Source of the DNA: Nitrospiraceae bacterium
Lineage (GTDB): Bacteria > Nitrospirota > Nitrospiria > Nitrospirales > Nitrospiraceae
Direction of reading: 5' to 3'
Assembly: GCA_023248355.1 (NCBI GenBank)
Contig: JAHFES010000008.1
Location: forward strand, 1-45,338
Length of the DNA stretch: 45,338 bases
Positions 17,746 through 34,146 of the stretch are shown in pieces. The notes under the pieces were generated by a model. The model was given only the letters and a program-made list of their open reading frames with translations, had not been told where the DNA came from and made no database searches. Each line of letters begins with the position of its first letter. Position 1 is the first letter of the stretch. A program made the translations under genes and the position numbers.

Positions 17746-18043
17746 AACCGTTTCTGCATAAGTAAGATTGTTGGCCTGTCCCGAACCGCCCTGCTCTGCT
17801 GTCCATCCTGCTACCGCATCATCAGCTACACCAGAGGCCACAGCCTGATTTCCTGTTTGTTCTGTGGGATCTCTCTTCCCACAGCATCTCACACCGAACC
17901 ATAGCCACCAGCCTCAACAGTTCGCTCCCTACATGCAGGTAGCGTTTGCCCCCTCCACACGACTTGAGCAAAGGCCTGTCACGAATCACTGCGGGGCTAC
18001 CGTTTGTTGCAGAGGGTGAAGTTGCCGATGGTGGAGTATGTGT
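17746..18043. other. Intergenic stretch with no convincing gene
   Basis: Between the small plus-strand gene and the end of dapB I see no gene I can support. A GTG-started minus-strand frame at 17710-17892 (rich in Ala, Ser, Gly) overlaps the plus-strand gene and has no ribosome site. No terminator-like hairpin with a T-run is apparent after dapB. Confidence 0.4.
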
Positions 18044-18847
18044 CTACCGAAGACCTAAGACATCCATCATGTCGTAGAGGCCAGGAGGCTGGCGAACAAC
18101 CCACCGCGCAGCGCGCAACGCTCCAAGGGCAAAGGTATCACGGCTGCTGGCTCGATGTGTGACCTCGATCCGCTCGCCCATGCCACCGAACAGAATGGTG
18201 TGATCGCCCACAATATCGCCAGCCCGGATGGTCTGAATCCCGATCTCGCCTTTGGTTCTCTCGCCGATCAAACCCTTGCGTGCATACACGCCAACCTGGT
18301 TCAGGTCACGGTTCACCGCCTGCGCAAGCACTTCGGCAATCTTGAGGGCTGTCCCGCTCGGTGCATCTTTCTTGAGCCGGTGATGGGCCTCGATCACTTC
18401 AATGTCGTAATCGTCGCCGAGTATTTTGGCCATCTCGCTGATAACCTTGTAGATCAGATTAACCCCGACGCTCATGTTAGGGGAGAAGACGCAGGGTATC
18501 TGGCGAGCGAACGACTTCAGCTCGTCAAGCTCGGAAGCAGACAACCCTGTCGTCCCGATCACCATCGCCCGTCGATGTGTGGCCACAATCCGCAAATGTT
18601 CTAAGGTCGCTTCGGGAGCAGAAAAGTCGATGACGACCTCTCCACGTTCCATGAGCGCTGGCAGATCGTCGGTAACGATGATACCGGCGCGTCCCGATCC
18701 GGCAGTTTCCCCAGCATCTTCACCAAGAGCGTGGTGCCCCTTTCCTTCCAGGGCCCCCGCAAGCGTCAAGGCAGTCGAATCCCGAATCAATGACACCAAA
18801 CGGCAGCCCATTCGACCTGCGGCCCCTGCAACGACAACCTTGATCAT
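18044..18847 (-). CDS. dapB: 4-hydroxy-tetrahydrodipicolinate reductase
   Basis: DapB reduces the DapA product with NAD(P)H in lysine and cell-wall diaminopimelate synthesis. The product (267 residues from ATG 18847) begins MIKVVVAGAAGRMG, the nucleotide-binding loop. It then has VIGTTGLS and SPNMSVGVNLIY. The catalytic segment is EAHHRLKKDAPSGTALK, with the His pair and Lys, and is followed by GIQTIRAGDIVGDHTILF. An in-frame ATG at 18868 would add seven residues; the shorter form starts exactly where the family does. The gene is last in the arg-lys series, 30 bases after dapA. Confidence 0.95.
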   Translation of the reverse strand: MIKVVVAGAAGRMGCRLVSLIRDSTALTLAGALEGKGHHALGEDAGETAGSGRAGIIVTDDLPALMERGEVVIDFSAPEATLEHLRIVATHRRAMVIGTTGLSASELDELKSFARQIPCVFSPNMSVGVNLIYKVISEMAKILGDDYDIEVIEAHHRLKKDAPSGTALKIAEVLAQAVNRDLNQVGVYARKGLIGERTKGEIGIQTIRAGDIVGDHTILFGGMGERIEVTHRASSRDTFALGALRAARWVVRQPPGLYDMMDVLGLR

Positions 18848-18877
18848 CGCGTCATTCACCCCTGGCATCGCTTGGGG

Positions 18878-19750
18878 TTAGATCAACTCCGCGTCTTTTA
18901 ATACGCGGACCAGCTTTTCTCGTGTGTCCTGTGCCATAGGGCACAGCGGCAGGCGCAACTCAGGATCGATCTTGCCCATCATCCCCAGCGCTTCTTTCAC
19001 CGGAATAGGGTTTGTCTCGAAAAACAACGCTGCAAACAAAGGCGAGAGTTTGAAATGAATCCGTCGCGCCTCGTCAACTTTCCCATCGGCAAAGGCCTTC
19101 ACCAGGTTGGCCATGTCGGTCGGCACCAAATTGGCTGTCACGGTAATCACGCCCTTGGCCCCAACCGCCATCATTGGCAGGGTCAAGGAATCATCGCCGG
19201 CTAAGACCGTTAATCGGTCGCCGCACATCTGCACAACGTCCGACGCTTGCTGGACCGACCCGCTCCCTTCCTTGACGCCGACAATCGTCTTAATCGTCGA
19301 GAGCCGCGCAATGGTAGCCGGCAGCATATTGACGCCGGTGCGCCCAGGAATGTTGTACAAGACCAACGGAAGATCCACGGACTCTGCCACCGCTTTGTAG
19401 TGCCGGTACAGCCCTTCTTGCGTGGGCTTGTTGTAGTACGGCGTAATGAGTAACGCCCCGTCGGCCCCCGCCTCTTTTGCATGTCTGGTAAGAGTGATGG
19501 CTTCATCGGTACTGTTTGAACCGGTTCCGGCAATCACGGGAACCCGGCGGTTGACAACCTCCACCGTCAGCTCAATGACCCGGTTGTGCTCCTCATGAGA
19601 GAGCGTGGCCGACTCCCCGGTGGTGCCACAGGGAACAATGCCATTGGTGCCCTTGGCAATCTGCCACTCGATCAACTCGGCCAGAGCCCGCTCGTCAACC
19701 TTGCCTTTTCGAAAAGGCGTGACGATTGCAACCAGAGAGCCGGTAAACAT
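18878..19750 (-). CDS. dapA: 4-hydroxy-tetrahydrodipicolinate synthase
   Basis: DapA condenses pyruvate with aspartate semialdehyde, the first committed step to lysine. The 290-residue TIM barrel shows GTTGESATLSHEEH at 42-55, TPYYNKPTQEGLY at 103-115, and LYNIPGRTGVN with Tyr132. The Schiff-base Lys160 is in TIVGVKEGSG. AGAGGAG lies just before the ATG at 19750; the frame runs on to 19765 but the family begins MFTGSLVAIVTPF. It is 11 bases after lysA. Confidence 0.97.
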   Translation of the reverse strand: MFTGSLVAIVTPFRKGKVDERALAELIEWQIAKGTNGIVPCGTTGESATLSHEEHNRVIELTVEVVNRRVPVIAGTGSNSTDEAITLTRHAKEAGADGALLITPYYNKPTQEGLYRHYKAVAESVDLPLVLYNIPGRTGVNMLPATIARLSTIKTIVGVKEGSGSVQQASDVVQMCGDRLTVLAGDDSLTLPMMAVGAKGVITVTANLVPTDMANLVKAFADGKVDEARRIHFKLSPLFAALFFETNPIPVKEALGMMGKIDPELRLPLCPMAQDTREKLVRVLKDAELI

Positions 19751-19761
19751 AGTCGCTCCTC

Positions 19762-21024
19762 TCACTTCAAAAACGAAGGAATCGTCTCGCCCCGCACCAA
19801 GTCATCATATGTTTCTCGTGCGCGGATGACATGGATCTCTCCATCCTTGATGAGGGCTTCAGGGACACGGGGACGAGAATTGTAATTCGACGACATGACG
19901 AAACCATATGCCCCCGCACTCATCACCGCCAGCATTTCCCCCGGCTTCACCTCCGCCATCGCCCGATCCTTGGCTAAAAAGTCTCCGGACTCGCAGACCG
20001 GCCCGACAATGTCCACTTGATGCTTGGCCCGATGACCGGCTTCTTCTTTCAGCGGACGGATTTCATGGTAGGCCCCATAGAGACTGGGACGAATCAAATC
20101 GTTCATGGCAGCATCGACAATCACAAAACGCTTGGCCTCTCCTGCTTTCAAATAGAGCGCCTGTGTCACGAGAATGCCCGCGTTTCCGACGATGACCCGG
20201 CCCGGCTCCATAATGAGCGTGACCTTCATATCCCGCACGAGCGGGAAGATCGCATCCGCCAGGTCTTGTGGCAGCGGGGGGGTTTCGTCGGCATAGGTAA
20301 TCCCCAGCCCTCCGCCGATATTGATGTATTGAATGCCGATGCCATCGCGTTTGAGCGACTCGACCAACGTGAGAATCTTCTTCATCGCTTCGACGAATGG
20401 CGTGACCTCAGTTAGTTGGGAGCCTATATGCTTATGCACGCCGACGACATCGATATGACTCAGTGATGACGCTATCTTGAACTCTTCCAGCGCCCGATCT
20501 GCCGCAATGCCAAACTTACTTTTCTTGAGTCCGGTCGAAATGTAGGGATGTGTCTTCGGATCAATGTCTGGATTGATCCGAAGCGCCACGCGCGCCTTCT
20601 TCCCGACCGACCCCGCAACCTCATTGATCGCTTGCAGCTCAGCCGGCGACTCTACATTGAACATCAGGATGTCCGCCTTGAGCGCATCACGGATTTCGTC
20701 GGCCTTTTTCCCTACCCCGGCGAACACAATCTTGGAGGCAGGAACACCAGCCTTCAACGCACGGAACAGCTCGCCGCCCGACACGATATCCACCCCGCTG
20801 CCTTCCTTCGCCATCAATCGCACAATGGCGAGATTGGAGTTCGCTTTCATCGCGAAGGCAATCACGTGGGGAATGTCTTTGAACGCACCATCGTACGCCC
20901 GGAAATGACGGACAAGCGTGGCATGGCTATAGACATAACAGGGCGTGCCGAGTTCTTTCGCGATCCGGCTGACCGGCACCTGCTCGCAATACAGCTCGCC
21001 CTCGCGATACTCGAAATCATGCAT
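19762..21024 (-). CDS. lysA: Diaminopimelate decarboxylase
   Basis: LysA is the last lysine enzyme, decarboxylating meso-diaminopimelate with PLP. The 420-residue product has Lys60 in FAMKANSN, GVDIVSGGELFRALKAG, VGVHKHIGSQ, INIGGGLGITY, IMEPGRVIVGNAG, and PVCESGDFLAKDR with the catalytic Cys from the partner subunit. It ends GAYGFVMSSNYNSRPR, which is fully typical. The ATG at 21024 is chosen over upstream starts since the family begins here and GAGG lies eight bases before it. The start lies inside the end of the radical SAM gene (8-base overlap). Confidence 0.96.
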   Translation of the reverse strand: MHDFEYREGELYCEQVPVSRIAKELGTPCYVYSHATLVRHFRAYDGAFKDIPHVIAFAMKANSNLAIVRLMAKEGSGVDIVSGGELFRALKAGVPASKIVFAGVGKKADEIRDALKADILMFNVESPAELQAINEVAGSVGKKARVALRINPDIDPKTHPYISTGLKKSKFGIAADRALEEFKIASSLSHIDVVGVHKHIGSQLTEVTPFVEAMKKILTLVESLKRDGIGIQYINIGGGLGITYADETPPLPQDLADAIFPLVRDMKVTLIMEPGRVIVGNAGILVTQALYLKAGEAKRFVIVDAAMNDLIRPSLYGAYHEIRPLKEEAGHRAKHQVDIVGPVCESGDFLAKDRAMAEVKPGEMLAVMSAGAYGFVMSSNYNSRPRVPEALIKDGEIHVIRARETYDDLVRGETIPSFLK

Positions 21025-22927
21025 CTTGGAAATCCTCACGCAAGAATTCAATCCCTGAAAGCGACAGCCCCTGCAACGACTCCTCGAACGCATCCTTGAA
21101 CTTGCGGTATCGGATCTTCACGTGCGGGAGCGCCGCCGTAATGGCGTCCGAATCGACGAGCGCCTTGAGTGCATCAGGCGTGGCCTGCTTGAGATGCTCA
21201 AAATTGATGATCACGTCCATCCGGGCTTTGTCCGACGCGTCCTTGAGGCGCTGCAATAATTCCTGGGCATTGAGGCGATCCAACGCGCCTTCCAGATCGA
21301 CAAAGAGTGCCGCAAACTTGTCGTGCCGCTTCGCCTTGATGGTCAGCACCAAGTTTTGGGCTGCCGGCTTCTGATCCAGCCGCTGCTTGATGGCATGCAA
21401 CGCGCTTGGCATGAGGTGCTCCGTATCAAACGTCGGCAGCTTTGCCTGGAGATTCTTGAGAACCTTGGCCAGTGGAGACAGCTTCCCTTTGGGACAAGCC
21501 CGCTTCACCAATTTGCGGAACTCACGATTCATTTCCCATCGAGCGATCAACCGCTGCTGGGTGCCGGACAGGCGACGCCAGATGTTCGGCAAGGAATAGA
21601 ACTGGTGATTGGCCCAGTTGAACCCTGCTTGTAATTGCTCCGGCGTCATCCGGCTGGGATGGAAGACGACGTGCTTGCCGTCATACTTGGACCAGTCACG
21701 ATCGAAAATGCGTCCAGCCTTATTGTACCGATCGAAGAGCGCGGTCCCCGGCAACGGGGTGAGCACATTGAAATAGGCCAGCTCCACCTGATTCTTCGTC
21801 AAGAACTCGACGGCCCGCTCAAACACGGATTCATCGTCACTGTCGAATCCGAAGACGATCCCAGGATTCACCATGATGCCGTGATCGTGGAACATTTTGA
21901 TCTCTTGCGAGAACTTCTGTACGCGGTTGAACGGTTTATTCGTTTCTTCGAGGCTGTCTTCGTCGAGCGACTCCATGCCCACGAACACCGACACGCAGCC
22001 GCTATCGGCCGCCAACTTGACCATCTCTTCATCGTCACCCAGGAAGAGGGTGGACTGGCAGCCCCACTTAATCTTGAGCGGCTTCAGCGCAGCCCAGAGT
22101 TCCCGGCAGTACGCGCGATTGCTGTTATGGAGATCGTCGACGAAAGCGACAATACCGCCATCGTCAATGCCGACCCGAATCCGCAAACCGGTTTTGAACG
22201 CCTGCCAGAGCGGCTCGGTTGAAATTCGTTCGATCAGCTCGCTACGCACCCACCGTTGCACTTGCACGATTTCCTTGACCACTTCCTGGACCGGACGCCG
22301 CCTGGTGGTCTTGCCGTTGAACGGCGACACGCTGCAAAACTCGCAGTCGAAGTGGCAGCCGCGGGTCGTAAAACTGCACTGCCTGGTCATGTAGGCATCG
22401 GGGCTGAGCAATTCGACGCGCGGACTCTTGTAGTTTTCCAATGACGGGAACGACGTCATCCGATACTCACGCTTCATGTGGCCCGCTTCATAATCCGCCA
22501 CGAGCTCGGGCCAGAGATCCTCCGCCTCTCCGCAGACAATCGCATCGCAATGTTGCAACGCTTCTTCCGGACAATATGTGGGATGAACACCGCCCATCAC
22601 AATGGTCTTCCCCCGTTTCCGAAACTCCGTGGCAATCTCATAGGCGCGCGGTGCGTAGCAGGTCATGATGGACAGGCCGACCATCTCGCAGGGATCGTCG
22701 AAGTCGATATCCTCCACTGCCTCATCGACCAAATCGACTTCCCATGAATCCGGCGTATAGGCGGCGATCGTCGGCAAACTCAGCTTCGGGAACCACACCG
22801 CACGGCGTTCTGCCGCAGTGAGATGGTACGGATTGTTCCGAGGATACGGATCGACCAATAACAAGCGTCGTTTGACTGCGACTCGTCCCTGTTCCTGTAC
22901 ACCCCGTGCCGGCTGGATTAGTTGCAT
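21017..22927 (-). CDS. B12-binding radical SAM protein with a C-terminal STAS-like domain
   Basis: A cobalamin-binding-like domain fills about residues 20-150 (RLLLVDPYP, VGLSIMTCYAPRAYEIA, IVMGGVHPTYCPEEAL, IVCGEAEDLWPELV). The radical SAM core has TTRGCHFDCEFCSVSPFNG, the CxxxCxxC cluster Cys191, Cys195, Cys198. Between the cluster and the FVDD strand lies an extra segment of about 34 residues (225-258) that ordinary members lack. Residues 526-636 read as a STAS-like fold (FVDLEGALDRLNAQELL, MDVIINFEHLKQATPDAL). Relatives include hopanoid methylases and other methyltransferases or ring-forming enzymes, but the reaction here is unknown. AGGAGGG precedes the ATG at 22927. It overlaps lysA by 8 bases. 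Confidence 0.85.
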   Translation of the reverse strand: MQLIQPARGVQEQGRVAVKRRLLLVDPYPRNNPYHLTAAERRAVWFPKLSLPTIAAYTPDSWEVDLVDEAVEDIDFDDPCEMVGLSIMTCYAPRAYEIATEFRKRGKTIVMGGVHPTYCPEEALQHCDAIVCGEAEDLWPELVADYEAGHMKREYRMTSFPSLENYKSPRVELLSPDAYMTRQCSFTTRGCHFDCEFCSVSPFNGKTTRRRPVQEVVKEIVQVQRWVRSELIERISTEPLWQAFKTGLRIRVGIDDGGIVAFVDDLHNSNRAYCRELWAALKPLKIKWGCQSTLFLGDDEEMVKLAADSGCVSVFVGMESLDEDSLEETNKPFNRVQKFSQEIKMFHDHGIMVNPGIVFGFDSDDESVFERAVEFLTKNQVELAYFNVLTPLPGTALFDRYNKAGRIFDRDWSKYDGKHVVFHPSRMTPEQLQAGFNWANHQFYSLPNIWRRLSGTQQRLIARWEMNREFRKLVKRACPKGKLSPLAKVLKNLQAKLPTFDTEHLMPSALHAIKQRLDQKPAAQNLVLTIKAKRHDKFAALFVDLEGALDRLNAQELLQRLKDASDKARMDVIINFEHLKQATPDALKALVDSDAITAALPHVKIRYRKFKDAFEESLQGLSLSGIEFLREDFQDA

Positions 22928-23019
22928 CTAGCATCCCTCCTGCTTGAACGACGAGCCTTTCATCTGAGTGCTCTTCGCTCGGCGCTGATGTGGTCCCACA
23001 TGTCCGTTCCGTCTCATGC

Positions 23020-23283
23020 TTATCTGGTCCCGACCGGCCTGAGCGGAGGCAACTCTTCGTCTTGCCCCCGCGGCTCGACCAACTCGGGCACTTCACCCTG
23101 CGTACTCTCAATCACACGTCGTTCTTGGGCTGCTTGTTTTGCATGCTGCTTCTTCTGCATTTCAATGATCGGTGTCACACCCACATTCTCCGGCGCAATC
23201 GGCGGCCCGGCTACTCCACACGCAACGATGACCCCCAGCACGACCCAGAGTGTCAGAAGACCTGGCAATCGTGTTGTCCTCAC
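23020..23283 (-). CDS. Small lipoprotein, LptM (YifL)-like
   Basis: The 87-residue product starts with GTG at 23283, inside the argH stop (GTGA overlap). It has a signal sequence with lipobox IVAC (Cys22). After the cysteine comes GVAGPPIAPENVGVTP, close to the CG..GP.. opening of LptM/YifL lipoproteins. In proteobacteria those lie beside lysA and help mature the LPS translocon LptD/E. The Gln/Lys/Glu-rich middle and acidic C-terminus (GQDEELPPLRP) are poorly conserved in this group. The assignment rests on the lipobox, the short motif and the argH-lysA neighbourhood, so the function is likely but not certain. Confidence 0.65.
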   Translation of the reverse strand: MRTTRLPGLLTLWVVLGVIVACGVAGPPIAPENVGVTPIIEMQKKQHAKQAAQERRVIESTQGEVPELVEPRGQDEELPPLRPVGTR

Positions 23284-24677
23284 GCAAGCGCCTTTACCCA
23301 CTCCCGGAGACGCCGATCTACTTGTTTGTAGGCCGTTCCGCCGACTTGAGCCTTCCGTTCGATCGCGCCTTGTACTGTCAGACGTTGCACAACCGACGAG
23401 TCGAACTTCTTTGAAAATTTTCGCAACTCCTCGACTGAAAGTTCGGTGAGTTCCTGCCCTTGGTCCAGCGCCCACCGGACGATGCGCCCCGTGATGCTAT
23501 GCGCCTCGCGGAAGGGAACGCCTTTGGTCACGAGATAGTCGGCGAGTTCCGTCGCCAACATCCCTCCCCCGCTGAGAGCTCTGGTCAGCGCTTCTCGATC
23601 GACCGTCAGCCGACGCATCAGTTCGGTCATCACCTCGACAGAGCTCTCGGCTGTATCGAGCGCATCGAACAGCGCCGGCTTGTCTTCCTGGAGATCTCGA
23701 TTATAACTCAACGGCAGGCCTTTCAGTGTGGTCAGCAATCCGATCAGATGCCCGTAGACCCGGCCGGTTTTCCCCCGAACAAGTTCGGGAACATCGGGAT
23801 TCTTCTTCTGCGGCATCATGCTGCTGCCGGTGCAAAAGGCATCGGGCAACTCGACAAAATGAAATTCCTGGGACGACCAGACAATCAACTCCTCGCTCAT
23901 GCGCGACAGGTGCATCATCACGACGGCCAGCGCCGACGCGACTTCAATCATGAAGTCCCGGTCCGACACCGCGTCCAAGCTGTTCTGCGTCACTGAAGGA
24001 AAGCCCAGCAGCGAGGCAGCATACTGGCGATCCACCGGATAGTTTGTCCCGGCCAGGGCGCCCGATCCCAGCGGCATCACATTCAGCCTGGTTCGACCGT
24101 CTCGCAGCCGCCCCTTATCCCGCTCAAACATTTCGACGTACGCGAGGAGGTGATGGGCGAACAGCACCGGCTGCGCCCGCTGCAGATGCGTGTACCCCGG
24201 CATCGGCACGTCGCGATGGGCCTTCCCCTGCTGCACCAGCACTCGCTGAAATTCTTCGAGCCGGCTGATGAGCGCCGCCAGTCGATCACGCAGATACAGC
24301 CGCACGTCCAGCGCCACCTGATCGTTTCGGCTTCGCCCCGTGTGGAGCTTGCCTCCAAGCGAGCCGATGAGCTCGGTCAGCCGCCGCTCGATCGCCATGT
24401 GGATGTCCTCATCCTCCGGCAAAAACTTAAATCGTTCCCGCTCCAGCTCGTGCAGCACGAGCTGCAACCCCCGAATGATCGTCGCCGTCTCACGCCGACT
24501 CAGTACACGCGCTTTCGCCAGCGTCTGACAGTGCGCGATGCTCCCCTGAATATCGTGCGCATAGAGCCGGCGATCGACCTCAATCGACCTCGTGAAGGTC
24601 TCTACCAACCGATCCGTTCGTTCACGAAATCGGCCGGCCCAGGCTTTTTCCCCTCCAGAACGGGGCCGCTGTGCCAT
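23280..24677 (-). CDS. argH: Argininosuccinate lyase
   Basis: ArgH splits argininosuccinate into arginine and fumarate, the last step of arginine synthesis. The 465-residue product belongs to the fumarase/aspartase superfamily: KAWAGRFRERTDRLVE near the start, HTGRSRNDQVALDVRLYLRD, GYTHLQRAQPVLFAHHLLAY, and the signature GSSMMPQKKNPDVPELVRG. The flexible loop with GSSMM carries the catalytic Ser. Its ATG shares one base with the argG stop (TGATG) and its end overlaps the lptM-like gene by four bases. Confidence 0.98.
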   Translation of the reverse strand: MAQRPRSGGEKAWAGRFRERTDRLVETFTRSIEVDRRLYAHDIQGSIAHCQTLAKARVLSRRETATIIRGLQLVLHELERERFKFLPEDEDIHMAIERRLTELIGSLGGKLHTGRSRNDQVALDVRLYLRDRLAALISRLEEFQRVLVQQGKAHRDVPMPGYTHLQRAQPVLFAHHLLAYVEMFERDKGRLRDGRTRLNVMPLGSGALAGTNYPVDRQYAASLLGFPSVTQNSLDAVSDRDFMIEVASALAVVMMHLSRMSEELIVWSSQEFHFVELPDAFCTGSSMMPQKKNPDVPELVRGKTGRVYGHLIGLLTTLKGLPLSYNRDLQEDKPALFDALDTAESSVEVMTELMRRLTVDREALTRALSGGGMLATELADYLVTKGVPFREAHSITGRIVRWALDQGQELTELSVEELRKFSKKFDSSVVQRLTVQGAIERKAQVGGTAYKQVDRRLREWVKALA

Positions 24678-25891
24678 CAGGACGAGGCCTTCTTCCGTTG
24701 GGCACGGATCTTCAACCGCAACGCGCTCAAGCGGATAAAACCCTCGGCGTCTTTCTGGTTATAGACTTCATCTTCTTCGAACGTGGCGATGTCGAGCCGA
24801 TAGAGCGAGTTCTTCGACTTCCGCCCCGCCAAGGTGCAACTCCCTTTGTATAGTTTCACCCGCGCGGTGCCGGCCACATCTTTTTGCGCCTCGTCGATCG
24901 CCGTCTGCAGCATCTCCCGTTCGGGACTGAACCAATAGCCGTTGTAGATCAGTTCGGCAAATCGCGGAATCAAACTGTCTCTCAGATGCAGCACTTCCCG
25001 ATCCATGGTCAACGATTCAAGCCCGCGATGCGCGACATGCAAAATCGTCCCGCCCGGCGTCTCGTAGACCCCGCGCGACTTCATGCCGACATAGCGATTC
25101 TCGACCAGATCGACACGCCCGATCCCGTGCGCGCCACCCAGCTTATTGAGGTGGGCCAGGAGCGTGGCCGGACTCATCCTCTTGCCATCAACGGCCACCG
25201 GGTTTCCACTAATGTAGTCGATCTCCACTTCGAGCGGCTTGTTCGGCGCCTTCTCCGGCGACACCGTCATCTGAAAGATCTCATCCGGCGGCGACTCCCA
25301 CGGATCCTCAAGAATGCCTCCCTCGTAGCTGACGTGAAAGAGATTCAGATCCATACTGTAGGGCTTCGCCTTGGTTGCCGTCACTGGAATCCCGTGGCGA
25401 TCAGCGTATTCGATCAACTCCCGCCGCGACCGCATCGTCCACTCACGCCAAGGAGCAATGATTTTGAGGTTAGGTGCCAGCGCGGTATAGGTCACTTCAA
25501 ACCGAACTTGATCGTTGCCCTTCCCCGTCGCCCCATGCGACACCGCCTCGGCCCCTTCTTTGAGCGCAATCTCAGCCTGCCGGCGCGCGATCAGCGGCCG
25601 CGCGATCGATGTCCCCAGCAGGTAGCAGCCTTCGTACAGCGCGTTGCCGCGCAGCATCGGAAACACATAGTCTTTGACGAACGTCTCGCGCAGATCTTCG
25701 ACATAGACCTTTTTCACGCCAAGCGACTGCGCCTTCGCCTTGATCGCTTGGAGATCCTCTCCTTGCCCAAGATCGGCGCAAAACGCAATGATCTCGGCCT
25801 GGTAGGTTTCTTGGAGCCATTTCAGAATGACGGAGGTGTCGAGTCCACCCGAATACGCCAGCACGATTTTCTTGATCGGTTTCTGCTTCAT
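24677..25891 (-). CDS. argG: Argininosuccinate synthase
   Basis: ArgG joins citrulline and aspartate with ATP. The 404-residue product has the PP-loop [18 protein letters not shown] near the N-terminus, [32 protein letters not shown], and SVEEASL-like binding residues replaced by the usual family strand [18 protein letters not shown]. Length and motif order are normal. The last residues ([12 protein letters not shown]) are a basic tail. It is 10 bases downstream of argF and touches argH. Confidence 0.98.
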
Positions 25892-25901
25892 GATGAGCTG
25901 C

Positions 25902-26879
25902 TTACTTCATACCTTTCTTACTCGAAAGAAGTTGAACTAAAATCGCTTTCTGCATGTGCAGGCGATTCTCTGCCTGGTCGATGACGACGGATTGCGGCCC
26001 TTCAAGCACGTCTGCGGTGATCTCTTCCCCCCGATGAGCCGGCAAACAGTGCATCACAATGGCATCCGGCTTGGCGCGTTGCAACAGTCGGCCATTCAAT
26101 TGGTAGGGCGCCAGTGTCTTCAACCGCCGCGCCTGCTCCCGTTCGCGCCCCATGCTGATCCAGACGTCGGTATACACCACGTCCGCTTCCTTCACGGCCA
26201 CCTGCGGATTCTCCAGCACTTCGATCGCCGCACCGGTACGTTCCGCCTCAATGCGCGCGCGATCGATCACGTGCTGATCCGGCTGATAGCCAACCGGGCA
26301 TCCGATCGCAATCCGCATCCCCATCTTCGCCGCGGCCTCGATGAGAGAATTGGTGACGTTGTTCCCATCTCCAACATAGGCGAGACTGAGCCCTTTCAGC
26401 CGACCTTTGATTTCGTGGATCGTCAGCAGATCGGACAGAGCCTGACAGGGATGGCTGTGGTCGGTCAGTCCGTTAATCACCGGCATCGTGGCTTCCTGTG
26501 CCCATTCCTCGACGATGGCATGATCATAGGTTCGAATGACGATGCCATCCAAATAGCGGGACAAGACACGCGCCGTGTCAGCCACAGTTTCTCCACGTGA
26601 GAGCTGAATGTCTCCTACGGGAAGACCCAGTGCATGACCGCCCAATTGATTCATTCCCGCTTCAAACGAGACGCGCGTGCGCGTGGACGGCTTTTGAAAC
26701 AGCATTCCCAGCGTTTTGCCAGGTAACAGCCAATGTGGGGTTCCTTGTCGCTGTTTCGCCTTCAACGAGGCAGCGAGCCGCAACAAGGCATCGACCTGTG
26801 CGCGCGGCATGGCCGCCACATCCAGAAGATCCTTGGCATAGGCGATGGAGCGAGCTGTCCGAGGGGCTTTCCCTGCCAT
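25902..26879 (-). CDS. argF: Ornithine carbamoyltransferase
   Basis: ArgF makes citrulline from ornithine and carbamoyl phosphate. The 325-residue product shows the carbamoyl-phosphate motif [32 protein letters not shown], the [16 protein letters not shown] segment, [16 protein letters not shown], and the ornithine-binding and catalytic [18 protein letters not shown] at 26877-26881 joins its start to the argD stop with one shared base. It is on the same transcript as argG and argH. Confidence 0.97.
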
Positions 26880-28096
26880 TAGTGGTGGGCGTCCTTTTCG
26901 GTGACCACTTGATGATTGAAGATCGCCGACAACGTCTCGATCAATTTATCGATCTCTCGCTGGGCAATGATCAGCGGCGGCACAAAACGGAGTACGCGCT
27001 CGCTCGTCGCGTTCACGAGGACGCCGCGGGCCAGACAATCGCCGACCACCGCTTTGGCGTCGATCTCCAACTCCAATCCCTGTAAAAGTCCAAGACCTCG
27101 CACTTCCCGCACCACTCGATGGCGGTCTTTACAGTCGGCCAATCCCTTCGCCAAATACTCACCCATCCGCTTGGCCTGATCCAACACACGCCCTTCCAGC
27201 AGCACCCGACACACCGCTAAGGCGGCCGCACAGGCCAGTGGGTTGCCGCCAAACGTCGAGGCATGCGTCCCAGGCGTGAACACCGCCGCGACAGATTCTT
27301 TCGCAAGACAGGCGCCGATCGGCATTCCCCCGCCAAGCCCCTTGGCCAGCGTCATGATGTCCGGCTCCACGCCCAGCTGCTCATAGGCGAAGAGCGTTCC
27401 GGTCCGGCCCATGCCCGTCTGGACTTCGTCGAAGATCAGGAGAATGTCTTGCTGCGTACAAAGTTCGCGCAGGTTCTTCAGATATTCCCGATCCGCCACA
27501 TGGACGCCGCCTTCACCCTGAATCGGCTCCAGCATGATCGCGGACGTCTTGTTGCTGACCATGCCGGCGATGGTTTCAAAATCGTTAAAGGGCGCATAGG
27601 CAAACCCCGGCACCAGAGGCTCGAACCCCTTCTGGACCTTCTCCTGCCCCGTCGCGGCGATTGTCGCCAGCGTCCGGCCATGGAACGAATTCTTCATCGT
27701 AATAATTTCAAACCGCTCGGCCCCGTGCTTCTCATGGCCATAGCGCCGGGCCAGCTTGATCGCCGCTTCGTTTGCTTCCGCCCCGCTGTTACAGAAGAAC
27801 GCCCGATCGGCAAATGAATGGTCCACCAGCATTTGCGCCAGTTTCACTTGCGGCTCGGTGTAGTACAGATTCGAGACATGGATGAGCTGTGCGGCCTGCC
27901 GCTGAATGGCCTGGATTAAATCCGGATGACCGTGGCCCAGGATATTGACCGCGATGCCACCGACAAAGTCGATGTACTCCCGGCCTTCCATATCGTAGAC
28001 CTTTGCCCCACGCCCCCGCACGATCGAAATCGGCTGGCGCGCGTAGGTCTGCATCAAGTACTTGGCGGCACCATCTCTCAGTTCTTCAGTCGGCAT
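26879..28096 (-). CDS. argD: Acetylornithine aminotransferase
   Basis: This 405-residue class III PLP aminotransferase converts N-acetylglutamate semialdehyde to acetylornithine, and in many bacteria also serves lysine synthesis. Motifs include FVGGIAVNILGHGHPDL, FCNSGAEANEAAIKLAR, NSFHGRTLATIAATGQ, LIFDEVQTGMGRTG with the PLP-binding Asp, and the PLP-lysine segment TLAKGLGGGMPIGA. The neighbouring argF-argG-argH confirms the arginine assignment. It is first in the series. There is no strong Shine-Dalgarno sequence before ATG 28096. Confidence 0.95.
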   Translation of the reverse strand: MPTEELRDGAAKYLMQTYARQPISIVRGRGAKVYDMEGREYIDFVGGIAVNILGHGHPDLIQAIQRQAAQLIHVSNLYYTEPQVKLAQMLVDHSFADRAFFCNSGAEANEAAIKLARRYGHEKHGAERFEIITMKNSFHGRTLATIAATGQEKVQKGFEPLVPGFAYAPFNDFETIAGMVSNKTSAIMLEPIQGEGGVHVADREYLKNLRELCTQQDILLIFDEVQTGMGRTGTLFAYEQLGVEPDIMTLAKGLGGGMPIGACLAKESVAAVFTPGTHASTFGGNPLACAAALAVCRVLLEGRVLDQAKRMGEYLAKGLADCKDRHRVVREVRGLGLLQGLELEIDAKAVVGDCLARGVLVNATSERVLRFVPPLIIAQREIDKLIETLSAIFNHQVVTEKDAHH

Positions 28097-28271
28097 AGCA
28101 AACGTATCCCATTAGAAAGAAAGGGAAGTTAGCACAGGGTCGACATGAAAGCAATAAGCGCAAGGTCGAAACAAGGTATCGCAACGCGCACTTCGGTCTC
28201 AACTCGTCACAGACAAGAAGTCATTGATCTTTCATTCCATCCGTTTCTCTTTATCCTGCCATCCGCCATAT

Positions 28272-28311
28272 GCCATCAGCTCTCCGTCTTCTGTTATTCG
28301 CCATCAGCTCT
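28272..28311. repeat. Direct repeat of a 12-base GCCATCAGCTCT unit
   Basis: The region between argD and the zinc-ribbon membrane gene (28097-28339) holds two exact copies of GCCATCAGCTCT at 28272-28283 and 28300-28311, 28 bases apart. Related CCATC/GCCAT words lie around them. The 243-base interval should carry the promoters of both divergent genes, but I cannot pick out a clear -35/-10 pair. No other gene is supported there. Confidence 0.6.
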
Positions 28312-28339
28312 TACTCGGACTGTGATAAGCTGCCCCGCA

Positions 28340-28990
28340 ATGAAGGCCTGCAGTCAGTGCAACCAACAGAATCCCGACGACGCCCACTTCTGTCATCAGT
28401 GCGGGGCCTCTCTTGCCCCCACCGCCGTGACAGCCGATGCGGCCACTGACATCCCCAATCTCGCGCCAATGCAAAACGATGAGGCACTCTGGCGTCAATT
28501 CATCGGCCCGTACGCCGATCAGTACCTGGCACAGTTTAAGAAGTTCTCTTCGAACGGGCAGCCCAAGTTCGCGCTCAGCTGGAACTGGCCGGCGTTTCTC
28601 TTTATCTCCTTCCTCTGGTTTCTCTACCGCAAGATGTACCTCCACGCCTTCGTGTATGCAGTCGGCCCCATGATCTCGACGTACCTCACCGGCGAGCTCT
28701 CCGTCGGCATCGTCTGGAGCATCATGGCCGGTGCCACGGCCAATTATCTGTATTATTGGCACTGCAAGGAACAGATTGCGGAGATCAAGAAAACGGGATG
28801 GATGAATCAAGCCGTGCAAGAAGCGGCCTTGAAAGAAGCAGGCGGTGTGCAACCTTACGTCATCTGGGTCGGCGTCGTGTTCTACATCATCTTCCTCGCG
28901 ACACTGTTCAAGATGGTCCAGGAAGTCCCGCCGGATTCAGAGAAGCTGCCGACGAGACCAGCGAAGCCGGCCTCAGTTACCAGCACATGA
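28340..28990 (+). CDS. Zinc-ribbon membrane protein with DUF2628-like region
   Basis: The product (216 residues from ATG 28340) opens with a zinc ribbon, MKACSQCNQQNPDDAHFCHQ with Cys4, Cys7, Cys18 and Cys21. A soluble linker follows, then a membrane region: WNWPAFLFISFLWFLYRKMY, a segment around AVGPMISTYLTGELSVGIVW, and a C-terminal helix VIWVGVVFYIIFLATLF. The WNW.AFLF..FWF.YRKMY pattern is that of DUF2628 proteins, found in the membrane with unknown function. An upstream open stretch to 28145 is not coding-like and contains repeats. It is divergent from argD. Confidence 0.78.
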   Translation: MKACSQCNQQNPDDAHFCHQCGASLAPTAVTADAATDIPNLAPMQNDEALWRQFIGPYADQYLAQFKKFSSNGQPKFALSWNWPAFLFISFLWFLYRKMYLHAFVYAVGPMISTYLTGELSVGIVWSIMAGATANYLYYWHCKEQIAEIKKTGWMNQAVQEAALKEAGGVQPYVIWVGVVFYIIFLATLFKMVQEVPPDSEKLPTRPAKPASVTST

Positions 28991-29006
28991 CCTTCAGAAC
29001 AAAGAT

Positions 29007-29831
29007 CTATCTTCCCCGCTGCCACGTCATCCAGGCCTGAAACCATCCAAAGTCCTGTTCGTAGGCGGCACCGCCAGAATCAGTCGTTTCCTGCTTCTGT
29101 TCCAACTGCTGGTAGGTGCGCGGCCAGTTCTTCTGCCACCAGGACTTGAGTTCGTCGGGGCTGTAGGCCTGGCCGTTCTGATTGAGAATGCCAGCCGCGG
29201 TGCAGAGGGGCGCGACGAGCGGCCAGTAGCGATCCTTCCCAAGACCGAGGCTGCGGAAATGTTCGCGCAGCAGAAACACCACCCACAGTTCGGCACTGTG
29301 TTTCTTGTTGTGCTTGAACGGTTGCGTCTGCCGAAGCGGCACTGGATCGAACGCCTTCACGATGGACGTATAGTCCGGCCCGCCATAGCTACCGGCGGCT
29401 TCGGCAATGCCTTCAACGACATTGGCCAGCTCGAGTTCCACGACCGGTGATTGGCTGATACTCCTACCTGGTGACGGTTCAGCCAGTGGGCTAGGGGCCG
29501 TGAGGAGTTCGATCAACGGCTTGAGCTCGCGCAGGCGCACAGCAGCCGCCTTCAGAATGTGCTCCGACTCGATCCAGTAATCCAGATCGTTCTTGGTCAA
29601 TCGTTCGCGTCCTGGCGGCGGCAGGACCGTCGGCACCCAGTAGCGCATGAGCACGAAAAGGACGTAGTCCACCTGCCCGCCGACTTGGCCAATTCGATCT
29701 AAGAGATTCCCTGTTTGAACCCCTTTGAAGAACGCCTGGGCTCGGTCAGCGACGTGGACACGCTCGCTCATGCCAGTCCACCATGATTCGAGCGCACGCC
29801 AGTTCATGTCGGGAGAAGGCACGGTTGTCAT
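29007..29831 (-). CDS. Hypothetical protein, 274 aa
   Basis: I do not recognise this family. The product appears soluble and mostly helical, with many aromatic residues (MNWRALESWWTGM, DYVLFVLMRYWVP, ELWVVFLLREHF, WWQKNWPRTYQQLE, WFQAWMTWQRG). A proline-rich linker with low order lies around residues 110-125. There is no signal peptide and no recognisable catalytic motif. It converges on the zinc-ribbon membrane gene and is divergent from gpmA. Long uninterrupted frame and consistent codon use support coding. Confidence 0.6.
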   Translation of the reverse strand: MTTVPSPDMNWRALESWWTGMSERVHVADRAQAFFKGVQTGNLLDRIGQVGGQVDYVLFVLMRYWVPTVLPPPGRERLTKNDLDYWIESEHILKAAAVRLRELKPLIELLTAPSPLAEPSPGRSISQSPVVELELANVVEGIAEAAGSYGGPDYTSIVKAFDPVPLRQTQPFKHNKKHSAELWVVFLLREHFRSLGLGKDRYWPLVAPLCTAAGILNQNGQAYSPDELKSWWQKNWPRTYQQLEQKQETTDSGGAAYEQDFGWFQAWMTWQRGR

Positions 29832-29977
29832 AACGAGGCTGCGTCCTGCGTGAAGATGTGAAGAATTGGGCGGATGGTACTGCTGCCTTTCAATGAAAGC
29901 AACCGCTTGACTTGAAGCGCCGATCCAGTATTCTTGGGCCTGGGTCAGTATTCATTCACGATCGAGAGGAGCAATTG

Positions 29978-32065: not shown

Positions 32066-33088
32066 TTACGCTACTTTCGCCTGCCGCCAGCGGAGGCCTA
32101 CGTTCAGCAATTCCTGCAGTAGCTCTTTGTAGTGGTAGCTGGATTTTCCCGCCGAGTCGGCGAAATCTTCATCGTGCGCGATTTGCGGATTTGGATTGGC
32201 TTCCAGGATATAGAGCTGTCCCTCTCCATCCATCCGCATGTCGATCCGCGCGTACCCGCTGAGTCCGAGCGCCCGATACACCCGTTTCGCCAGGTGCTGA
32301 ATCTCTTCGGCCTTTCCCTCTGGAAGATTCTCGGCTTCCCGCGAGGTGATGCCATACTTCACCTGATACTTCCGACTCCATTTCACTCGTTCGGTCGCAA
32401 TCCGCTTGGCATCATCCGGGAGCTTATCCATGATGAGCTCCCACACAGGGAGTACGTGTAAGTGCCCATTCCCGATGACTCCGACATAGAACTCCCGGCC
32501 CTCAATATAGCGCTCAATCAATGCCCCGCTCCCGACACTGTTGTGGATGAATGCCACGCGTTCTTTGAGCTTGTCATCATCTTCCACAATCGAAGCTTGT
32601 GAGATTCCGAGGGACGCTTCTTCACTGACCGATTTGACGATGAGCGGAAACCTGAGCCATTTTGGCCGCTTCACCGCTCGCCCCTGCGGCACCTCAATGA
32701 ACTCTGGATAGAGAATCCGGTGAAATGAGAGCACCTTCTTGGCCAGTGCTTTATCACGCGCCAGCATCAACCCACGTGGGTTGCAACCGGTATAGGGCAT
32801 GTGCAGGAGTTCGAGATACGACACCACGTGTTGGTCGTAGACAGCTTCCCCGTCAAACTCTTCCAGTAAGTTAAAGGCGATATGCGGCTTCCACTCGTCG
32901 ATCGCGGAACGGATGACGCCCAGATCATTCTTCACACCGAGCGGCTGCACTTCGTGCCCCAGCTTCCTCAGCGTCGACACGACATCGTACTCCGTCCGCC
33001 ACTCCACGCTCTTCAGGTCGTGGCCGTTCAGGTGGTCCGGCGGAACGAGGTCTTCATGCATGAGGACGAGCACACGCAGTCGCTTCAT
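32066..33088 (-). CDS. ATP-grasp ligase, D-Ala-D-Ala-ligase-like
   Basis: The 340-residue product has the D-Ala--D-Ala ligase architecture: a Rossmann-like N-terminal domain (RVLVLMHEDL, AFNLLEEFDGEAVYDQH, LHMPYTGCNPRGLMLARDKA), then the ATP-grasp region (FPLIVKSVSEEASLGISQAS, ALIERYIEGREFYVGVIGN). The metal-binding end is GYARIDMRMDGEGQLYILEA, followed by NPNPQIAH. True Ddl enzymes end this motif EVNTxPGMT, so NPNPQI points to a different amino-acid or peptide substrate. It overlaps the metallopeptidase gene by ATGA, so the two proteins are made together. The product of the ligation is unknown. Confidence 0.85.
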   Translation of the reverse strand: MKRLRVLVLMHEDLVPPDHLNGHDLKSVEWRTEYDVVSTLRKLGHEVQPLGVKNDLGVIRSAIDEWKPHIAFNLLEEFDGEAVYDQHVVSYLELLHMPYTGCNPRGLMLARDKALAKKVLSFHRILYPEFIEVPQGRAVKRPKWLRFPLIVKSVSEEASLGISQASIVEDDDKLKERVAFIHNSVGSGALIERYIEGREFYVGVIGNGHLHVLPVWELIMDKLPDDAKRIATERVKWSRKYQVKYGITSREAENLPEGKAEEIQHLAKRVYRALGLSGYARIDMRMDGEGQLYILEANPNPQIAHDEDFADSAGKSSYHYKELLQELLNVGLRWRQAKVA

Positions 33089-34146
33089 AACGCCACCCGA
33101 TGCCGGCCGCTTCTCAAGAAATTCATCGTGTGCACGGTCAGAAGAATGGTGAAATCGAGTTTGGCTTGTTCCTCTGCCACCGGCACTCGAAGATTTAATT
33201 CACGTGATCGACGGATCATGTCTTCTAACACCTGATCGATGGTGTACTGATATTCTCCGGTCCAACTGGCGACTTTCCGCCGAACTTCTCGCCGAAAATG
33301 ATTCAGAAATGTCGCCGCACTTGGCTTGCCGGCGTGGTTCGGCAAGTTCGAGAACAGGCGCTTCAAATCTGGGTCATAGAGCGACTGCCGCTCGACTCCA
33401 TAATGACTTCGCTTGTGCTCGTAGTGTTCTCGGAGGGTCTTCTTCAAGCTGGGGAGCGAATCAATTTCTTCGCGGGTCGTCACGGAGGGCGTGGCCCCCA
33501 CGAGCTCTTTCATCAGTCCATCGACATACTTGAGTTTCTTCAGGACCGGCCAGCCTCTGTACCGCTCTTCCCACAACGAATCCGGCGTCAACCACACGGC
33601 AAAGGTCTCCGCAAAATCCTCGTCCGGATGACTCTGCGCATACCACAAGTCCAAGTGACGCACGAAGCTTCGGCTATAGGGCCGCGGCGTGTAATACATC
33701 GGATAGCGCTGCGAAGACCGGCCGAACATCTGCTGGCGGGTCTTGCGACGGCGAATCTTGTAGGCGTTCTCAATGGCATGGCCGGCTTCATGACGCAGGA
33801 TGCGCAAACACCACTCCGGCGTGCCGCCCTCCACTTCCAACATCTGGGCCAGTTCGAGTTTCGCGAGGCGAGGATGGGCGAGATAGAACGGCACCGCAAT
33901 CCCAGGGACTCCATCGGGGGTGAACCACTCGTTCGAAATCCAGAAGTGTGGGCGGAAGAGCAGGCGACGTTCTTCAAGTTCTTTGGTCAGTTCGGCAATC
34001 GGTTCTTCGAGAAATCCCCCTTTGACTTCCAACTGCAGATCACACATCGGGAGTTCCAAGAGCGCCTCATCCGACCACGACACCCATTTGTGTTCCCCTT
34101 GTCCGACAACCGGCGTCTTGAGTGCATCTAACCCTGTGCGTGGCAT
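33085..34146 (-). CDS. Putative zinc metallopeptidase with HEAGH motif
   Basis: The 353-residue product has the zincin motif LRHEAGHAIENAY (His119, Glu120, His123) and, about 55 residues on, PDEDFAETFAVWL, which offers the third zinc ligand (Glu177 or Glu180). There is no signal peptide, so it should be cytoplasmic. The C-terminal half is helical and basic, with no other domain I know. It resembles the group called putative zinc-binding metallopeptidases. It is the first gene of a two-gene unit; ATGA overlap with the ATP-grasp gene ties their synthesis together. It may trim or release a peptide made by the ligase, or regulate it; neither is shown. Confidence 0.8.
   Translation of the reverse strand: MPRTGLDALKTPVVGQGEHKWVSWSDEALLELPMCDLQLEVKGGFLEEPIAELTKELEERRLLFRPHFWISNEWFTPDGVPGIAVPFYLAHPRLAKLELAQMLEVEGGTPEWCLRILRHEAGHAIENAYKIRRRKTRQQMFGRSSQRYPMYYTPRPYSRSFVRHLDLWYAQSHPDEDFAETFAVWLTPDSLWEERYRGWPVLKKLKYVDGLMKELVGATPSVTTREEIDSLPSLKKTLREHYEHKRSHYGVERQSLYDPDLKRLFSNLPNHAGKPSAATFLNHFRREVRRKVASWTGEYQYTIDQVLEDMIRRSRELNLRVPVAEEQAKLDFTILLTVHTMNFLRSGRHRVAL

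Follow-up and report, generated by a model that had tools for sequence, protein, structure and literature searches.

A predicted B12-binding radical SAM enzyme with a C-terminal STAS domain in the arginine-lysine gene cluster of Nitrospira and relatives

Among the arginine and lysine biosynthesis genes of a Nitrospiraceae bacterium lies a gene whose product joins a cobalamin (B12)-binding domain, a radical S-adenosylmethionine (SAM) core and a STAS domain. This locus raises the question of what such an enzyme does in this setting, and of what use it makes of a domain type known mainly as a part of regulatory proteins and transporters. The window, meaning the whole stretch of DNA that was analyzed, comprises 45,338 nucleotides (GenBank assembly GCA_023248355.1, contig JAHFES010000008.1), and the fusion gene occupies 21017..22927 on its minus strand, as do all window features described below. 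The open reading frame (ORF) has an ATG start and a stop at 21017, and encodes 636 amino acids. Judged from sequence, its architecture is that of a B12-radical SAM enzyme with a STAS tail, conserved in Nitrospira and relatives. We give about even chances to the explanation that the protein, produced from the arginine-lysine cluster, belongs to the cobalamin-binding superfamily of radical SAM enzymes, and that its STAS domain is a permanent docking module, for a partner or for a carried substrate, and not a phosphorylation switch.

Domain make-up of the fusion protein

A preliminary description of the locus had proposed a B12-like domain and a radical SAM core with cluster cysteines at positions 191, 195 and 198, and profile searches bear out both parts. 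The window protein scores 46.4 bits against the B12-binding family PF02310, for which the Pfam cut-off is 32.1 (residues 47-142; 22502..22789; E 4.3e-12). The core (residues 187-375; 21803..22369) likewise exceeds the cut-off of PF04055 (E 4e-13), matches AprD4 and MgmA in structure, and carries the CxxxCxxC [4Fe-4S] motif (C191/C195/C198; 22334..22357), all of which are marks of the radical SAM superfamily. In a 60-row alignment made up of 32 rows with both an insert and STAS (the window protein and 31 relatives), 15 rows with STAS only and 13 with neither, the three cysteines are present without exception (60/60), as are G112, G113 and H115 of the B12-binding domain. Pfam also gives a weak match to DUF4070, and among the NCBIfam families listed none reaches its cut-off for the window protein (84.9 bits against 251 for TIGR04013).

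The C-terminal domain plus tail (residues 526-636; 21020..21352), which the preliminary description had read as STAS, is confirmed at the family level as a STAS homolog by profile comparisons. In the window protein the match is below threshold: STAS_2 aligns with residues 543-594 of the whole protein at E 0.076, under the Pfam cut-off, and the tail cut out as a domain gives E 0.015 and 0.03, with 14.5 bits for PF01740 against a cut-off of 22.6. When 10 close homologs were searched against Pfam at E up to 10, STAS_2 was found in 9/10 (best 7.8e-5) and STAS in 5/10 (best 2.1e-5), and among 28 cut tails searched at E<=0.1, PF01740 was matched by 25 and STAS_2 by 14. In a subset of 10 of these 28 tails, three exceed the PF01740 cut-off (25.7, 23.7 and 28.3 bits), two have no match at 0.01, and the best tail match covers 4-97 of 106 profile positions. 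A profile of the tails run against 177635 PDB sequences places SpoIIAA first (E 5.5e-4), with two further SpoIIAA entries at 0.0083 and 0.0086 and unrelated eIF2B chains appearing from E 0.085.

A structure model computed from the 60-row alignment has a mean predicted local distance difference test (pLDDT) score of 86.2 and a predicted template modeling (pTM) score of 0.85. Its tail comprises strands 527-534 and 540-549, helix 551-568, strand 571-582, helices 584-591 and 593-599, strand 605-608 and helix 610-618, an order that is compatible with STAS, and the STAS part (residues 531-600) has block pLDDT values of 73-91. Prediction of the whole protein had been proposed as a check on the assignment, and it serves in one respect, a confident model with a fitting order of elements, but not in another, because structure searches with the whole model scarcely reach the STAS domain: the best 50 matches listed are filled by the core. 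It is very unlikely that the region is an unrelated alpha/beta tail resembling STAS by chance. Such a view can appeal to the window protein falling under the Pfam cut-off both whole and as a cut domain, to the two tails without a match, and to the thin structural coverage, but it must set aside the three tails above the PF01740 cut-off, one match spanning most of the profile, the first rank of SpoIIAA in the reverse search, and the fitting order of predicted strands and helices.

The same comparison speaks to what the domain could do. An alignment of a relative with SpoIIAA spans the DSSG motif, and the phospho-acceptor serine stands opposite Pro584. This proline is kept in 47/47 STAS-bearing rows, and the aspartate before the phospho-serine position is replaced by Thr (41 rows), Ala (4) or Ser (2). 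A phosphorylatable serine after the aspartate in DSSG, the trait of anti-anti-sigma factors of the SpoIIAA type (TIGR00377), is therefore missing, so the classic phosphorylation switch is absent. The preliminary description had suggested a regulatory or partner-binding role; because an invariant proline stands for the phospho-acceptor serine, partner binding fits better and phospho-regulation is disfavored. Little credence is left for the idea that the domain is a switch as in anti-anti-sigma factors or stressosomes, with phosphorylation setting whether the enzyme is active. By profile, SpoIIAA proteins are indeed the nearest solved structures, and the anti-sigma factor antagonist model TIGR00377 matches one distant member at 1.5e-5, under its cut-off, but both switch residues are replaced and no kinase or phosphatase gene is found among the annotated neighbors. 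For one bacterial SLC26 transporter, a structure of the STAS domain together with acyl carrier protein has reportedly been solved (Babu 2010, cited in PMC6147952), which counts in favor of docking.

Conservation, order of events and genomic setting

The preliminary description had also pointed to an insert after the cluster, and had raised the possibility of an assembly fault. The insert (residues 225-258; 22154..22255; about 32 residues net) is no such fault, because numerous assemblies made independently contain it, among them the complete genome of N. moscoviensis, and both it and the fusion are common to homologs. The span 224-259 holds 36 residues in the window protein and its 31 relatives, compared with 4 in the 15 STAS-bearing relatives outside this clade and 3-20 in the 13 without STAS. 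It is predicted to form a helical hairpin (213-237 and 240-251), with block pLDDT values of 78-83 for residues 221-250 and 65 for 251-260. Mean identity to the window protein is 0.46 in the insert, 0.74 and 0.81 in the flanking core and 0.54 in STAS, so the insert varies faster than the core.

A quick tree, from which the insert and STAS columns were left out, places the rows with insert and STAS (32), with STAS only (15) and with neither (13) each on one side of a branch (support 100, 91 and 86), and the trait changes on it are the minimum number possible; the position of the STAS-less rows, which have long branches, is uncertain. Read most simply, these sequences point to one fusion with STAS first and one helical insertion later. 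This order of events, the place of the gene in an arginine-lysine cluster and its overlap with lysA all go beyond the preliminary description.

A contig scan with two exact peptide patterns returned 79 loci, all Nitrospirota by title save two records labeled Nitrospinaceae or Nitrospinota; diverged relatives in other phyla would escape such patterns, and the other searches were made within Nitrospirota. In this set, argH lies within 3 kb upstream in 69/69 loci with at least 1.5 kb of upstream sequence, and lysA lies within 0.6 kb downstream in 70/71 loci that have 1.3 kb or more of downstream sequence. In the window, the stop of the fusion gene overlaps the lysA start by 8 nucleotides (ATGCATGA; 21017..21024), and an overlap of this length is present in 63/76 loci having a lysA match. 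Among 15 distant loci, argH is upstream in 13/13 and lysA downstream in 7/14 of those testable. The corresponding region of 27 relatives without the gene provides the comparison (25 span argH to lysA, two are cut by contig ends, and locus L174, which served another purpose, is not counted), and there 25/25 junctions hold 219-466 nucleotides with a small lipoprotein-like ORF only.

The full order in the window is argD-argF-argG-argH-lipoprotein ORF-fusion gene-lysA-dapA-dapB. Upstream of the fusion gene are argD (26879..28096; TIGR00707, E 2e-165), argF (25902..26879; NF001986, E 1.8e-130), argG (24677..25891; NF001770, E 2.5e-191) and argH (23280..24677; TIGR00838, E 3e-188), and downstream are lysA for diaminopimelate decarboxylase (19762..21024; TIGR01048, E 4.5e-162), dapA (18878..19765; TIGR00674, E 3.6e-115) and dapB (18044..18868; TIGR00036, E 1.1e-93). 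The lipoprotein-like ORF (23020..23283; 87 amino acids) has a GTG start overlapping the argH stop, gives no significant Pfam match, and carries an ACGxxGPPxAPExVGV-type motif; relatives conserve the ORF in this position, between argH and lysA, and by eye it may resemble LptM. Farther out, a 274-amino acid protein (29007-29831) without a Pfam or NCBIfam match has homologs near argD in many related loci, and the span 32066-34146 holds an ATP-grasp relative of D-Ala-D-Ala ligase beside a protein that matches a zinc metallopeptidase family just above the cut-off. Rfam matched nothing in window positions 18000-29900, and promoter and terminator scans gave scores at chance level.

Two second copies of the fusion gene were seen. 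One, in Nitrospira sp. HEB_FP_1_bin.25 (L057:110-676 and 788-2695), directly follows an MlaC/HpnM-family gene outside the arginine-lysine cluster and is the one locus of the 71 without lysA; the other (L252:6003-7856) has an internal stop codon and lies between two Band_7/SPFH genes. As a functional clue these copies were set aside: loci of related MlaC genes elsewhere share only an upstream gene (two loci) and a short ORF, and have no radical SAM gene.

Of 295 sampled Nitrospirota genomes, 56 have a match to the protein at E<=1e-70, STAS-less relatives included. The tail alone matches 13/61 genomes at E<=0.01; 12 of these matches fall within fusion genes, and the 13th is a frame of 85 residues whose contig carries a fragment of the radical SAM portion as well, so that no free-standing STAS tail was seen among these 61 genomes. 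The window genus, represented by 79 genomes, has the full-length gene in 4 (N. moscoviensis among them), only a shorter or weaker relative in 35, and neither in 40. Presence across distant families, together with clean absence from many Nitrospira, points to repeated loss of the fusion gene, and these natural absences offer ready genome pairs for metabolite comparison. Mutual exclusion between the full-length gene and the shorter STAS-less relative was considered but not upheld: 0/79 genus genomes have both, an outcome that has a probability of 0.09 by chance. Among the papers searched, none joins radical SAM, STAS domain and cobalamin, one (PMC7159879) contains the first two terms, and a wider search listed nothing relevant; nor was anything relevant listed for Nitrospira in combination with arginine biosynthesis, radical SAM and cobalamin.

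Reaction, substrate and competing explanations

If the protein works as its domains suggest, SAM would be reductively cleaved at the [4Fe-4S] cluster to give a 5'-deoxyadenosyl radical, and an unactivated carbon would be modified with cobalamin as the likely methyl carrier, C-methylation being the most probable outcome. The STAS domain would bring the substrate, or its carrier or partner protein, to the active site, and the helical insert may add an extra, lineage-specific contact.

Clues to the substrate come from relatives without STAS, the closest of which share 38-42% identity. In one locus (L237:958-8279), three B12-radical SAM genes, two FabF-like ketoacyl synthase genes and LolA stand in a row, and one of the B12-radical SAM proteins, encoded about 1.8 kb from the STAS-less relative, exceeds the cut-off of the lipid biosynthesis family TIGR04072 (371.8 against 360). 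Elsewhere (L233:762-10837; also L234), the relative and three other B12-radical SAM genes accompany two CrtI-like oxidoreductases and a 4HBT thioesterase; this run, from a different Nitrospirota family, has the look of a cluster for lipids or polyenes. Anammox type II fatty acid synthesis (FASII) clusters, proposed to make ladderanes, likewise carry radical SAM enzymes, phytoene-desaturase-like enzymes and fabF paralogs (PMC2649909). This evidence favors the view that some STAS-less sister genes act on acyl-type substrates.

Our single best guess for the fusion enzyme, and a tentative one, is that its substrate may be an acyl chain, possibly on an acyl carrier protein. Several observations weigh against it. 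The immediate neighbors of the fusion gene are arginine and lysine genes and not lipid genes, and STAS-less relatives also occur near DNA gyrase A (L236), near ATP-grasp and SPASM radical SAM genes (L235) and near pyruvate kinase (several Nitrospira), the neighbors in L235 and L236 being uninformative on function. Furthermore, methylation is not assured, because AprD4, which the core matches best in structure, is a dehydratase not known to use cobalamin. The main competitor is an enzyme acting on arginine, lysine, diaminopimelate or a product of these, which would explain its place between argH and lysA. The argH and lysA flanks and the lysA overlap speak for such an amino-acid-derived substrate; but most STAS-less relatives are located elsewhere, though one group (L218, L219) is just upstream of argD, beside a polysaccharide deacetylase, and the arginine-lipoprotein-lysine cluster is equally intact in all 25 gene-less junctions, so the arginine and lysine pathways do not need the fusion gene, which may merely ride in a housekeeping cluster. 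An amino-acid-derived substrate is a rather doubtful choice, though one to be kept beside the acyl substrate, toward which we lean slightly.

A more specific product, the N. moscoviensis marker lipid 11-methyl-hexadecanoic acid, was suggested by the lipid literature (PMC5516240 and PMC3660363). N. moscoviensis has both gene (L038) and lipid, whereas in N. defluvii and N. marina, which are absent from the 79 named loci, this fatty acid is no marker lipid (PMC3660363 Table 3). However, the gene is conserved far beyond Nitrospira, and N. moscoviensis has two strong homologs of CMAS (PF02353; E 8.9e-89 and 2.5e-87), a known type of mid-chain methylating enzyme. N. marina 295 also contains 0.8% of the lipid, on a tentative reading of the column in PMC3660363 Table 1. 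This product is disfavored, above all by the two CMAS homologs, and has hardly any probability left.

With the acyl substrate and the docking module taken together, the protein would be a B12-radical SAM enzyme that modifies acyl chains and has in its STAS domain a built-in docking site for acyl carrier protein or a lipid, and it would be produced from, and translationally tied to, the arginine-lysine cluster of Nitrospirota; so detailed a combination is improbable as a whole. If acyl docking is nevertheless correct, STAS would here deliver cargo to a soluble enzyme of metabolism. More generally, a conserved fusion of STAS with a radical enzyme, in which the phospho-site is lost and whose gene keeps its place downstream of argH in several Nitrospirota families, suggests a metabolic use of STAS for docking, and additional modification chemistry in nitrifying and related bacteria.

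Comparison with known systems

The core is best matched in structure by AprD4, a radical SAM 1,2-diol dehydratase (6fd2; Z 31.9, root-mean-square deviation 2.8 over 400 residues, model residues 18-491). Identity is 20%, however, the match stops at residue 491, before the STAS domain, the AprD4 family model NF033070 gives the window protein 40.2 bits against a cut-off of 500, and the spacing of the cluster cysteines looks different in alignment. MgmA, the glutamine C-methylase of methyl-coenzyme M reductase (9ccb), ranks second by structure (Z 25.6 over 364 residues, model residues 21-479) and is the top PDB sequence match of the family profile (E 3e-11), but here too the match ends before the STAS domain, at residue 479, and TIGR04014 gives 54.7 bits against 360. 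CysS, OxsB and TsrM are also among the structure matches of the core.

Comparison with named families leads to a similar picture. BchE (TIGR02026) provides the first NCBIfam score, 90.4 bits, below the cut-off of 481.35, and HpnJ (TIGR03471) the third, 65.4 bits against 577.6. The lipid biosynthesis family TIGR04072, which has a member gene near the STAS-less relative in L237, gives the window protein 60.6 bits against 360. For the C-terminal domain, the likeness to SpoIIAA and other STAS domains (PF01740) is that of a homologous domain, and the differences are that a proline here replaces the phospho-acceptor serine and that the domain is fused to a radical SAM enzyme.

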